This document shows positions 5,761 to 47,637 of a stretch of DNA of 64,000 bases, piece after piece. Within the stretch, counting starts at the first letter, position 1. Each line of letters begins with the position of its first letter. The notes beneath the pieces were generated by a model. It did not search any database. It saw only the letters and a list, made by a program, of their open reading frames with translations, and was not told where the DNA came from. Source of the stretch: Flavobacteriaceae bacterium (GTDB taxonomy: Bacteria; Bacteroidota; Bacteroidia; Flavobacteriales; Flavobacteriaceae); the NCBI GenBank assembly GCA_023257625.1, contig JALRBW010000069.1, positions 1 through 64,000 on the forward strand. The letters run 5' to 3'. Position numbers and translations under genes: made by a program.

Positions 5761-6450
5761 ATGAAGATGAAGTTACTCACCCCTACTAATATTGAATCAG
5801 AATTAAAAAAAATCCGAAACCAAGAAAGTGAATCTACTCTCTTTGAAATTAATTTAAAAGAGTTATTAAATGAACAAAAAATTGTATCCAAGAACAATTT
5901 TTCTCTTGATTTATTAAAAACTGATAATATTTTTCATTTAGACCAAATTAAAAAGGTTTGTATCGATTACCGACTTCGTTTTTTAGACCTTGCCTATTTT
6001 AAAGGCAACCTTCCTGAATCAGCGGAAAGCGAAATTGAACTACTAGAAAAGGAACACCAAACCCAGTTAGGTGATTTTAAATTAATGGCTCCTTCAGTTT
6101 TATTTAGATTGGAAAAAACAGACGATCCGCTACTATTTGTACCTATTGGTAATCAATATTATTATCTAGTCCATAAATGGGGAAACGATCTTCATCCACT
6201 CCGTAAAATTTTAATGTGGCCTTTTAAAGGTATTTGGCATTTATTGAGCTTAGTTTTGGTTATAAGCTTCTTAGTGACGTTAATTACTCCGATTTCCATT
6301 TTTACTAAATCTACGGATGCTTCTGCATTTTGGATGCTCTTTTTCTTTATGTTTAAAGCCATTGCTTCCGTTGTCCTTTTTTATGGTTTTGCACTTGGTA
6401 AAAATTTTAATCCTGCAATATGGAATAGTAAATACAATAAAGCACTTTAA
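5761..6450 (+). CDS. Conserved two-helix membrane protein of unknown function
   Basis: 229 aa; I do not recognise a named family. The first ~150 residues are soluble and charged. Two hydrophobic segments follow at about 159-181 and 189-211, with a short polar C-terminus (IWNSKYNKAL). There is no signal peptide, so the N-terminal domain is probably cytosolic and anchored to the inner membrane by a C-terminal hairpin. It starts 64 bases after pheT behind its own -7 box and is separated by one base from a DUF2007-type protein, so the two are probably co-transcribed and may act together. No function is claimed. Confidence 0.75.
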   Translation: MKMKLLTPTNIESELKKIRNQESESTLFEINLKELLNEQKIVSKNNFSLDLLKTDNIFHLDQIKKVCIDYRLRFLDLAYFKGNLPESAESEIELLEKEHQTQLGDFKLMAPSVLFRLEKTDDPLLFVPIGNQYYYLVHKWGNDLHPLRKILMWPFKGIWHLLSLVLVISFLVTLITPISIFTKSTDASAFWMLFFFMFKAIASVVLFYGFALGKNFNPAIWNSKYNKAL

Positions 6451-44119: not shown

Positions 44120-45337
44120 ATGCATAAGAGGATTTTACAAAATATAGGTCCAGGAACTTTGATTACAGCAGCATTTATTGGACCAGGAACAGTTACCCTT
44201 TGCTCTTTAGTTGGGGTATTGTTTGGATTGAATTTATTGTGGGCAATAGGGGTCTCTATTTTAGCTGCTATTGCCCTACAAAGTATGGCAGTTCGCTTGA
44301 GTATCATTACAGGTCAAGGGATAGTTCCCTTAATACAAAATGGACTTATTCCTAAAGGAATAAAAATATTTTTTACAGGATTAATTTTCGGAGCCATTCT
44401 AGTAGGAAATACAGCCTATGAAGCTGGTAATATAAGTGGGGCTGTGTTAGGTATTGAAACAATTTTTGGGAATATTCCTTTTGTTCTAGGAAATACCTCA
44501 GTTAATTTATATTCTATTGGAGTTGGCTTAATTGCTGGAATTTTACTTTGGCTGGGAAAATACAAACTTATTGAAAGAACATTAATTGGTATGGTTGTAA
44601 TTATGAGTGGTACATTTCTAATTACTGCAATTACTACTGCTCCTTCATTTGTTGAAATAGTAAAAGGACTTTTTTCATTTTCTTATCCAAAAGGAAGTCT
44701 ACTTAGTATAATTGGATTGGTAGGAACTACAATTGTTCCATATAATCTTTTTTTACATTCAGCTCTTGTCCGGGAAAAATGGAATTCTAAATCGCAGCTC
44801 CCAAATGCATTACATGACATGCGAATTGCTATAGGTCTGGGGGGTATTATTTCCATCAGTATCATAATTACAGCCGCTGGAGTTCAATTAAATACCATTG
44901 AAAATGCTGCAGATTTAGCTTTAGGATTGGAATCACTTTTTGGAGCATCAGCAAAATATTTTTTATCTTTTGGACTCTTTTCCGCGGGTGTCACTAGCAC
45001 CCTTACTGCGCCTCTTGCTGCTGCATATGTTACCTGTGATTGCTTTCAATGGAAAGCAAATTTATCCGAAAAGCGATTTCGTTTAATAGGACTATTTATT
45101 ATACTCTTCGGTGTTGTAATATCTGCTTCTGGGTTAAAGCTAATTTTGATAATTCAATTTGCACAAATTATCAATGGAATTTTACTCCCTTTAATTGCAG
45201 CTATTCTTTTGTGGATGATTAATAATTCAAAACTTATGGGTTCTTATAAAAACAACAATATTCAAAATATAATTGGTGTTGGCATTGTTTTAATTACCTT
45301 GTTTTTAAGTTATCGTACCCTAGTTTTTCTTTTTTAA
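44120..45337 (+). CDS. Nramp-family transporter lacking the metal-binding DPGN motif (YcsG-like)
   Basis: 405 aa, about 11 transmembrane helices in the LeuT-like Nramp pattern. In Nramp metal transporters TM1 holds DPGN and TM6 MPHNLYLHS; here TM1 reads FIGPGTVTL (21-24, GPGT) and TM6 near residue 205 reads IVPYNLFLHS, so Asp, Asn and the Met ligand of the metal site are all gone. Loss of these residues argues against Mn/Fe transport. The gene is immediately followed by pxpA, pxpB and pxpC, as B. subtilis ycsG lies among ycsF, kipI and kipA. A role in 5-oxoproline (pyroglutamate) import is the natural inference, unproven. Confidence 0.88.
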   Translation: MHKRILQNIGPGTLITAAFIGPGTVTLCSLVGVLFGLNLLWAIGVSILAAIALQSMAVRLSIITGQGIVPLIQNGLIPKGIKIFFTGLIFGAILVGNTAYEAGNISGAVLGIETIFGNIPFVLGNTSVNLYSIGVGLIAGILLWLGKYKLIERTLIGMVVIMSGTFLITAITTAPSFVEIVKGLFSFSYPKGSLLSIIGLVGTTIVPYNLFLHSALVREKWNSKSQLPNALHDMRIAIGLGGIISISIIITAAGVQLNTIENAADLALGLESLFGASAKYFLSFGLFSAGVTSTLTAPLAAAYVTCDCFQWKANLSEKRFRLIGLFIILFGVVISASGLKLILIIQFAQIINGILLPLIAAILLWMINNSKLMGSYKNNNIQNIIGVGIVLITLFLSYRTLVFLF

Positions 45338-45347
45338 CCTATAACTT

Positions 45348-46058
45348 GTGACTAAAATACCTTATAACATAAATATTGATGTTGCTGAAGGAATTCAAAA
45401 CGAAGAAGCACTTTTCCCCTATTTATATGCATGTAATATTGCCTGTGGTGCTCATGCAGGTAATCTTGATGAAATGAAACGTGTTATTTATTTAGCAGAA
45501 AAATATAATGTCCATATAGGTGCACATCCTTCTTTTCCTGATCGCAATCATTTTGGAAGACGCTTAATTGTAATGGATGAAAACGCTCTTTATGATACTA
45601 TTGCTAACCAAATTGAAAAATTAAATAATCTACTCCAAAAGCCACTTTACCATGTCAAAGCACACGGAGCACTTTACCATAGTACGGCTCATTTAAAAGA
45701 TCATGCTGAAATTTTATTAAACGTACTCTGTACTGAATTCCCTTATGTGAAATTATTTGCCCCTCCTTACTCTGAACTCGAAAAACAAGCCCTTTTAAGA
45801 GGAATTGAAGTTTGTCGTGAAGCTTTTTTAGACCGACGCTATTTAACACGTAACGAATTAGTAGATAGATCTGAAAATGAAGCTCTATTAAACAATATTC
45901 AAAGTGTTTGTGATCAATTTATACAACTAACTCAGCACCAAAAAGTTTTTACACTCCAAGATCAATGGGTAAGTCTTAACGCCGATACCTTTTGTCTCCA
46001 CGGAGATCATCCAATGGTATTAGATTTTTTAGAAGCTATTTATAAAATCACAAATTAA
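45348..46058 (+). CDS. pxpA: 5-oxoprolinase subunit PxpA (LamB/YcsF family)
   Basis: One of three subunits of the prokaryotic ATP-dependent 5-oxoprolinase, which opens pyroglutamate to glutamate. 236 aa with family marks NIACGAHAGNLDEM, HIGAHPSFPDRNHFGRR, VKAHGALYH, EAFLDRRY and LHGDHP. The normal DLGEG start is changed to DVAEG. GTG at 45348 is the start (MTKIPYNINIDVAEG), 10 bases after the transporter. Confidence 0.94.
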   Translation: MTKIPYNINIDVAEGIQNEEALFPYLYACNIACGAHAGNLDEMKRVIYLAEKYNVHIGAHPSFPDRNHFGRRLIVMDENALYDTIANQIEKLNNLLQKPLYHVKAHGALYHSTAHLKDHAEILLNVLCTEFPYVKLFAPPYSELEKQALLRGIEVCREAFLDRRYLTRNELVDRSENEALLNNIQSVCDQFIQLTQHQKVFTLQDQWVSLNADTFCLHGDHPMVLDFLEAIYKITN

Positions 46059-46064
46059 GCAAAA

Positions 46065-46787
46065 ATGAAAACCCTAAATCCATTTAGTTTTTTTCAATTA
46101 CATCCTAATGCCCTATTAATTCAATGGAAAAAAGATCCTTCGGATCAATTGCTTAATGAAATTTTAACTTTGAAATCAGAATTATCAACACATTTAAAAG
46201 AAATTAAAGGCATTACTCAAGGTTATCAATCCCTCTTAATTTTATTTGAGAAACCCCTTAAGTCAATAAGTAAAAAACAAAATGAAATTTTGACAATATA
46301 TAATGCAATCAGCCAATTTAAAGAACCTATTGCAAAGCATTGGACCTTACCTGTTTGTTATGATCCCATTTTTGGTTATGACCTTCTTTCATTATCCAAT
46401 CAACTTGAAATTGAACCCACTAAACTTATAGAATTACATAGTTGTAGTGTATACCGAGTTCAATTTATTGGATTTCTCCCAGGATTTTTATATCTCAACG
46501 GCCTACCCAAAGTCTTAAATACGCAAAGGAAAGCTATACCCTCCCCTAAAGTACAGCCAGGATCTGTAGGAATTGGTGGTTCACAAACAGGTATTTATCC
46601 AATTGAAAGTCCCGGAGGTTGGCATATTATTGGAAATACTCCAGTTAATCTGTTTAATCCAGAAGCAAAATTCCCATGTTTTGCAGAATCTGGTGATAAA
46701 ATATCATTTGAACCGATATCACAAAATGAATATGCTAAAATTAAAAAAGCATATACTAAAGGAACCTACACCCTAAAACATGATTGA
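46065..46787 (+). CDS. pxpB: 5-oxoprolinase subunit PxpB (KipI-like)
   Basis: 240 aa, KipI domain. Conserved stretches: LPVCYDPIFGYDLLSLS, YRVQFIGFLPGFLYLNGLP, PSPKVQPGSVGIGGSQTGIYP and SPGGWHIIGNTP. In B. subtilis the homologue also inhibits kinase A; here no sporulation context exists, so the metabolic role applies. Six bases after pxpA; overlaps pxpC by eight bases. Confidence 0.94.
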   Translation: MKTLNPFSFFQLHPNALLIQWKKDPSDQLLNEILTLKSELSTHLKEIKGITQGYQSLLILFEKPLKSISKKQNEILTIYNAISQFKEPIAKHWTLPVCYDPIFGYDLLSLSNQLEIEPTKLIELHSCSVYRVQFIGFLPGFLYLNGLPKVLNTQRKAIPSPKVQPGSVGIGGSQTGIYPIESPGGWHIIGNTPVNLFNPEAKFPCFAESGDKISFEPISQNEYAKIKKAYTKGTYTLKHD

Positions 46788-47637
46788 AATTATTCATCCC
46801 GGTTGGTACTCATCCATTCAAGATCAAGGTCGATGGGACACACTTCATTTAGGAGTACCTATCGGAGGAGCTATGGATCATGAAGCTTTTCAATTAGCAA
46901 ATGCGTTATTAAATAATTCTAAATATGATGCTGTAATTGAAATGACTTATTTCGGTGCACAACTTAAGTTTCATCAAGACACACTTATTTGTATCACGGG
47001 AGCAGATATGGAGCCGAAATTGAATGGAAAAAAAATATCAAACAATAAAGCTATCGCGGTAAAAGAAGGAGATCAACTTAAATTTACACATGCCTTGAAT
47101 GGATGTCGTACTTATTTAGGCGTCTTTGGAGGCATTCAAACAGAAACGCTTCTGGGAAGTAAAAGTCAGGCCAAAGGTATTACTAGGAGTAGCAAATTAA
47201 CTAAAAATAATATTTTACCAATTGGAACAAACTCAGTAAAACCTTCAAGATTTTCTCATATTGCTTTCAATAAAAAGTACGATAACTTTAATGATCTAAA
47301 TGTTTATCCAGGACCTGAATATGATGATTTACCTCTTTTATCAAAACAAAAAATAGAACAATCTAAATTTACTGTTTCAAAAGATCATGACCGAATGGCC
47401 TTTCGCTTAAACGAAAAAATTGCCCCCCCTTCTAAATCAATTTGGACCTCACCTGTAATACCAGGAACTGTTCAATGTACACCAGATGGTACCTTGCTAA
47501 TTCTTATGCGTGATGCACAAGTTACAGGTGGATACCCTAGGATACTTCAACTCAGTGATGAAGCATTGAACTGTTTAGCTCAAAAAACAACTTCAAATCA
47601 AATTCAGTTTATTCTTTCCTCAGTAAATGACACCTAA
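46780..47637 (+). CDS. pxpC: 5-oxoprolinase subunit PxpC (KipA-like, biotin-dependent carboxyltransferase fold)
   Basis: 285 aa. Family marks: IIHPGWYSSIQDQGRWDT, GVPIGGAMDHEAFQLAN, GADMEPKLNG, TYLGVFGGI, DRMAFRLN and PVIPGTVQCTPDGTLLILM with DAQVTGGYPRI. Works as a complex with PxpB and PxpA. Last gene of the Nramp-like/pxpABC operon. Confidence 0.94.
   Translation: MIEIIHPGWYSSIQDQGRWDTLHLGVPIGGAMDHEAFQLANALLNNSKYDAVIEMTYFGAQLKFHQDTLICITGADMEPKLNGKKISNNKAIAVKEGDQLKFTHALNGCRTYLGVFGGIQTETLLGSKSQAKGITRSSKLTKNNILPIGTNSVKPSRFSHIAFNKKYDNFNDLNVYPGPEYDDLPLLSKQKIEQSKFTVSKDHDRMAFRLNEKIAPPSKSIWTSPVIPGTVQCTPDGTLLILMRDAQVTGGYPRILQLSDEALNCLAQKTTSNQIQFILSSVNDT

Follow-up and report, generated by a model that had tools for sequence, protein, structure and literature searches.

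An Nramp-fold carrier without metal ligands, encoded beside 5-oxoprolinase genes in a flavobacterium, is a probable 5-oxoproline importer

The stretch of DNA analysed here, referred to as the window, comprises positions 1 to 64,000 of contig JALRBW010000069.1 from a Flavobacteriaceae bacterium (assembly GCA_023257625.1), whose small draft genome amounts to 1.93 Mb in 75 contigs. Between positions 44120 and 47637 the window encodes a secondary transporter of the Nramp fold, followed by the three subunits of 5-oxoprolinase, PxpA, PxpB and PxpC. A preliminary description of this DNA had placed the carrier gene directly before pxpA-B-C, and the order, strand and spacing of the open reading frames (ORFs) confirm it: 10 bp separate the carrier gene from pxpA and 6 bp separate pxpA from pxpB, while pxpB and pxpC overlap by 8 bp, which gives the four genes the layout of an operon. 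The features, including three motifs in transmembrane helices (TM) of the carrier, are as follows.

44120..45337, + strand: secondary transporter with the Nramp fold (PF01566), GPGT branch, ATG start, 405 aa; proposed 5-oxoproline importer
44180..44191, + strand: TM1 GPGT, residues 21-24, in place of the DPGN metal-ligand motif
44417..44431, + strand: TM3 Y100-EAG-N104, belonging to the G-Y-G-N-G-G pattern that marks the Slc11 orphan outgroup
44723..44746, + strand: TM6 GTTIVPYN, residues 202-209, in place of GATxMPHN
45348..46058, + strand: pxpA, 5-oxoprolinase subunit A (LamB/YcsF family), GTG start; PF03746, 211.6 bits
46065..46787, + strand: pxpB, 5-oxoprolinase subunit B (CT_C_D); PF02682, 185.3 bits
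46780..47637, + strand: pxpC, 5-oxoprolinase subunit C (CT_A_B); PF02626, 232 bits; 8-bp overlap with pxpB

All three enzyme subunits are thus encoded together, with scores above the Pfam cut-offs and under the strict NCBIfam equivalog cut-offs. Promoter-like sites are no more frequent than in shuffled sequences. The nearest named relative of the carrier, at 83% protein identity, comes from a metagenome-assembled genome labelled 'Flavobacteriia bacterium'.

The Nramp fold of the carrier is evident from its match to the Pfam Nramp family (PF01566, 244.6 bits), from sequence matches in the PDB, and from a predicted model with a mean predicted local distance difference test (pLDDT) score of 86.9, which superposes on DraNramp (6d91; Z 47.7, root-mean-square deviation 2.4 over 381 residues), also on EleNRMT (Z 42.9), and more weakly on the amino-acid permeases AdiC, ApcT and LAT1 (Z 27-30). 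The helix breaks that are the hallmark of the LeuT fold lie at residues 20-21 in TM1 and 205-206 in TM6. TM1 reads AAFIGPGTVTLC and TM6 reads LVGTTIVPYNLFLHS. Relative to the canonical DPGN/MPHN arrangement, all four ligand positions are changed (D to G21, N to T24, A to T203 and M to V206) and the His of MPHN is replaced by Y208, so the earlier statement that GPGT in TM1 and VPYN in TM6 remove the metal ligands holds. Branch alignments of 53 and 59 members show no substitution at G21, G23, T203, T204, V206, Y208 or N209, with T24 kept in at least 90%, and the altered ligand residues are therefore not a product of chance or sequencing error. Of the traits that define the Slc11/Nramp metal transporters, the carrier has the fold and the PF01566 domain and lacks the TM1 DxxN and TM6 AxxM ligands; the DxxG-TxxA/T pattern of the Mg2+-transporting NRMT proteins is likewise absent, there being no TM1 Asp and a valine at position 206.

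Branch classes were drawn from the aligned Nramp-like proteins of fetched loci, and the TM1/TM6 classes found were GPGT/VPYN (that of the window), DPGN/MPHN, NRMT, GTGS, GPGS, GSGS, GAGD, GVSH and GPGF/VGGTVGGY. Each multi-member class that was tested forms one supported group on the tree. The GPGT (support 99/98) and DPGN (100/100) proteins make up separate groups, the window carrier not grouping with DPGN, and the GPGF branch, which is of the type of Bacillus subtilis YcsG, is separate as well (100/100); a single clade of GPGT and GPGF is not rejected (approximately unbiased test, p 0.40). Identity to the window carrier is 29-83% within the GPGT class and 15-28% in all other classes. The GPGT and GPGF branches have in common the equivalents of G21, N104, T204, Y208 and N352, which are mostly absent in metal Nramps. 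A scan of genome contigs with the single window sequence returned two close relatives, the breadth of the branch coming from a wider genome search, and a profile scan of viral contigs with the branch alignment gave no matches. The residues of the GPGT branch recall an 'orphan outgroup' of Slc11 described by Cellier, with D to G and N to T in h1, G-Y-G-N-G-G in h3 and A to T, M to V and H to Y in h6 (PMC10606218), for which no substrate was given (PMC10606218, PMC9606685).

The neighbourhood of GPGT genes is dominated by 5-oxoprolinase. In the fetched loci, 62/101 GPGT carriers adjoin pxp genes and 13/101 adjoin genes of the HyuAB/OPLAH type, counts that are lower bounds because many loci had only about 1.5 kb of flank. 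Neither enzyme adjoins any of 60 control loci with DPGN, NRMT or other Nramps (Fisher p 7.6e-24), a set drawn before the GPGF class, whose proteins also adjoin pxpA, had been recognised. The enrichment of GPGT homologues beside pxp genes, which the preliminary description had proposed as a check, is therefore strong (62/101 vs 0/60). The window's family was represented by 80 genomes. Their 49 Nramp matches within 1 kb of pxpA are without exception directly upstream of it and co-oriented with it, usually at a distance of about 100 bp, and pxpA is present in 50/51 of the genomes with a GPGT carrier vs 7/29 of the others (p 1e-12).

A second enzyme found beside GPGT carriers belongs to the 5-oxoprolinase/hydantoinase/caprolactamase family, to which PxpABC has no similarity and whose hydantoinases are unfused (PMC8453981). 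On plasmids of Haloferax mediterranei and Haloarcula marismortui, phyla beyond Bacteroidota having been sampled only through plasmid records, the gene of a GPGT protein with 40-41% identity to that of the window precedes hydantoinase/oxoprolinase genes, HyuA starting 4 bp after it. The GPGT-HyuAB pairing also occurs in several Bacteroidota families, and at four adjacent loci HyuAB is one fused chain of 1265-1279 aa, the layout of the eukaryotic 5-oxoprolinase. When the wider phylum is considered, the 35 genomes with a GPGT carrier divide into 13 with pxpA and 22 with HyuB, none having both and none neither, whereas the 80 genomes without GPGT include 12 with pxpA and 4 with HyuB; 10 of these 16 have a GPGF carrier, and only 6/70 genomes with neither a GPGT nor a GPGF carrier have either enzyme. 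Two GPGF genomes have HyuB: G380, and G287, which is without pxpA. Exclusivity of the two enzymes is claimed for the 35 wider-phylum genomes only, because two genomes of the window's family deviate: G065, in which neither enzyme was found and the carrier gene is cut at a contig end, and G026, which has both. One further genome, G379, is nested on the tree among congeners linked to pxp, has no pxpA and carries a fused HyuAB gene 619 bp from the carrier gene on the other strand. This looks like replacement of the enzyme around a retained carrier, and the apparent swap points to a substrate common to both pairings. The literature covered, in which subscription journals are mostly not included, yielded nothing linking Nramp proteins to hydantoinase-type oxoprolinases.

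The pairing with a second, unrelated enzyme independently supports the 5-oxoproline hypothesis, and the genomic context makes import of 5-oxoproline, rather than of metal, the most likely role of the window carrier. As a LeuT-fold secondary importer, it would take up 5-oxo-L-proline (pyroglutamate), and it is presumably co-expressed with the ATP-dependent PxpABC, which would open the imported lactam to L-glutamate. The TM1 motif of AdiC is GSG, whose glycine amide forms a hydrogen bond with the carboxylate of the substrate; the corresponding motif of xCT is GAG (PMC5877779). By analogy with these helix-breaking motifs of APC permeases, the unwound G-P-G of TM1 may hold the carboxylate of the substrate with its backbone amides, while N104, T203/T204, Y208 and N352 would be the best candidates for contacts with the lactam ring. 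Within the preliminary description's proposal of an Nramp branch moving 5-oxoproline, the pxp enrichment and the pairing with the second enzyme speak for the core, while the possible source that it named, an exported glutaminyl cyclotransferase at 13.1 kb, is unsupported. This PF05096 protein is encoded 31 kb from the carrier, its product would be peptides with pyroglutamyl ends, and pyroglutamyl peptidase I (PF01470) was not found in the draft genome; as a source of 5-oxoproline it was dropped.

Several points weigh against a 5-oxoproline importer, among them published measurements of manganese. One study described YcsG as importing Mn2+ and gave it the name MntG; overexpression of YcsG raised cell Mn2+, and a triple mutant in mntH, mntA and ycsG was not obtainable (PMC10448178). 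Mn2+ import was also reported for MumT of Acinetobacter baumannii, encoded in what was described as a 'urea' operon; deletion of mumT lowered Mn by inductively coupled plasma mass spectrometry and was complemented (PMC5050338). Other experiments favour 5-oxoproline: deletion of pxpT in Corynebacterium glutamicum abolishes growth on 5-oxoproline and can be complemented (PMC13274462), and deletion of ycsG in B. subtilis reportedly blocks 5-oxoproline use (PMC13274462), a phenotype that might be polar according to a caveat raised elsewhere (PMC10448178). The idea of an Nramp-family 5-oxoproline importer is thus already published (PMC13274462) and contested. All of these proteins lie on another branch. 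The model of a GPGF protein matches the YcsG entry 9a52 at 58% identity (TM-score 0.94), which places YcsG in the GPGF branch, and PxpT would belong there by its reported 50% identity to YcsG (PMC13274462). An A. baumannii record matching the mum operon layout (L195, 4704-10905) encodes a LysR regulator, an Nramp protein, PxpA, D-glutamate cyclase, a PxpBC fusion and a biotin carboxylase; the Nramp protein has GPGF in TM1, VGGTVGGY in TM6 and no metal ligands, which suggests, as read from these genes, that the operon named for 'manganese and urea' serves 5-oxoproline. In the structure comparison YcsG is about 21% identical to the window carrier. The claim that ycsG shows the same association therefore holds for the kind of operon, but the placement of YcsG in the window carrier's branch is overturned by that identity and by the 58% match to GPGF. 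Because the branches differ, the YcsG, PxpT and MumT experiments do not directly cover the window carrier, whether they speak for or against metal. The Mn2+ measurements are not dismissed, and together with a fold that is that of metal transporters they would allow the window carrier still to import a divalent metal (Mn2+) and to owe its place in the operon to a need of 5-oxoprolinase or nitrogen metabolism for that metal. With YcsG and MumT at 19-22% identity to the window carrier, MumT itself without the ligands, all four ligand positions replaced in the window branch, and the exclusive pairing with two unrelated lactam-opening enzymes left unexplained, a Mn2+ role is quite unlikely.

The remaining points against 5-oxoproline import concern the gene association and what it can tell. 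At genus level the association stands at 17/17 vs 16/51 (p 2.6e-7), with a control group that still includes YcsG-type carriers, and the p-values throughout overstate independence because the genomes are phylogenetically related. In 26/101 GPGT loci neither enzyme adjoins the carrier. A GPGT subclade with VTYN in TM6 (L079, L082, L085, L090 and L092; VAYN in L096) adjoins 2-oxoacid:ferredoxin oxidoreductase genes, which are upstream in the annotated L079 and L085, with similar upstream gene lengths in the remaining loci; all nine genomes fetched for this subclade carry one of the two 5-oxoprolinases somewhere, but the role of the subclade may differ. No transport, binding or growth data for any GPGT-branch protein were found in the literature. 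The family of the second enzyme does not fix its substrate, as HyuAB enzymes include hydantoinases and caprolactamase, and a related lactam, hydantoin or D-5-oxoproline would fit the gene association too. The cargo could be glutamate, D-5-oxoproline, a hydantoin or some other lactam and might vary between subclades, a view to which the D-glutamate cyclase in some operons of the GPGF branch and the differing VTYN neighbourhood lend themselves; 5-oxoproline is nonetheless the best fit, since the neighbour in the window's subclade, PxpABC, is a 5-oxoprolinase and fused HyuAB has a 5-oxoprolinase layout, and such a related cargo is unlikely. Nor does gene association give a direction. Since 5-oxoproline arises spontaneously in cells (PMC13274462) and transport direction is not readable from genomics, the carrier might instead work outward, exporting 5-oxoproline made in the cell or venting an excess of it. 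Export would be wasteful beside a salvage enzyme, however, and C. glutamicum depends on the analogous carrier to grow on 5-oxoproline supplied from outside, which makes this the least probable of the readings.

Taken as an importer of 5-oxoproline, the window carrier represents a branch other than that of YcsG, PxpT and MumT, and what is new here is that the branch pairs with two enzymes and that its residues match the orphan outgroup. In the dispute over Mn2+ and 5-oxoproline for Nramps in pxp operons, it provides an independent case, having no metal ligands and a natural pairing with a second enzyme. The orphan outgroup, which is used to root Nramp evolution, gains a testable substrate. A wider proposal, plausible but held only tentatively, is that the members of this outgroup, which occur in Bacteroidota, Gammaproteobacteria and haloarchaea and are linked to one or other of two unrelated 5-oxoprolinases, transport 5-oxoproline and comparable small cyclic carboxylates, and that metal Nramps are one specialised offshoot while other branches (GPGT, GPGF, GTGS and others) would carry organic solutes by means of a GxG carboxylate site. 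Annotation is also affected. The window carrier matches NCBIfam NF037982, an 'equivalog' model named 'Nramp family divalent metal transporter' that accepts GPGT, GTGS and GVSH proteins without metal ligands; because it names GPGT-branch proteins metal transporters, many annotations are probably wrong and the model probably spreads wrong names.

Other observations were made at the fetched loci. In L120 (6025-8531) the place before pxpABC, occupied elsewhere by the Nramp-fold carrier, is taken by a sodium:solute symporter (SSF), likely a transporter replacement. A DUF2891 gene lies next to a GPGT carrier beside gamma-glutamyltranspeptidase in L045 (344-4207) and next to pxpA in another genome in L121 (6784-7902); DUF2891 may be connected with the metabolism of 5-oxoproline or of gamma-glutamyl compounds. 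The GTGS branch (L127, L128, L129, L138, L147, L151 and L154-L163; ORF near position 6000) has TM1 IGTGSVTSM, TM6 GTTMxxx and no metal ligands. Its neighbours in two identified loci are sugar-acid or alginate genes (alginate lyase PF08787, SDR, a 6-phosphogluconate dehydrogenase-kinase fusion, PFK and PfkB kinases), with similar gene-length patterns at others, and it is possibly a further branch of the fold that carries organic solutes. A very divergent Nramp-like protein with GVSH in TM1 and GWMPAPLD in TM6, encoded on contig C62 of the window's own genome (L125, 5984-7189), has 11 relatives and is widespread in the family; its gene there stands between one ORF of the sigma-70 type and one of the radical-SAM, lipoyl-synthase-like kind. 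Two small branches are GPGS/SSFSIAG (L106, L123, L126), with an epimerase-like gene adjoining at the one locus identified, and GSGS/ALWPN (L139, L152), adjoined by a radical-SAM HemN-like gene.

Compared with known systems, the window carrier resembles canonical Nramp/MntH/DMT1 proteins (DPGN/MPHN) in fold, length and Pfam family, but these have their own metal ligands, are only 21-25% identical to it and never stand by 5-oxoprolinase genes in the sample. The NRMT Mg2+ transporters share the fold at 26-28% identity, whereas they keep the TM1 Asp, have IAPW or VAPW in TM6 and lack oxoprolinase operon neighbours. PxpT, YcsG (MntG) and MumT have the Nramp fold, an adjoining pxpA, as the window gene has, and no metal ligands (read directly for MumT and relatives); they differ in TM1 (GPGF, within GPGFLTQT) and TM6 (VGGTVGGY), which the window carrier lacks, in forming a clade to which it does not belong, and in that their gene follows pxpA in most loci read, whereas that of the window precedes it. 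The Bordetella TRAP-type receptors DctP6 and DctP7, proposed for 5-oxoproline uptake near a eukaryotic-type 5-oxoprolinase (PMC13274462), parallel the role suggested for the window carrier but belong to an unrelated transporter class. There is also a correspondence with the Slc11 orphan outgroup, to which the window branch is matched by described residues only: G96, Y100, G103, N104, G107 and G111 are all present in the window carrier, together with the TM1 and TM6 changes.

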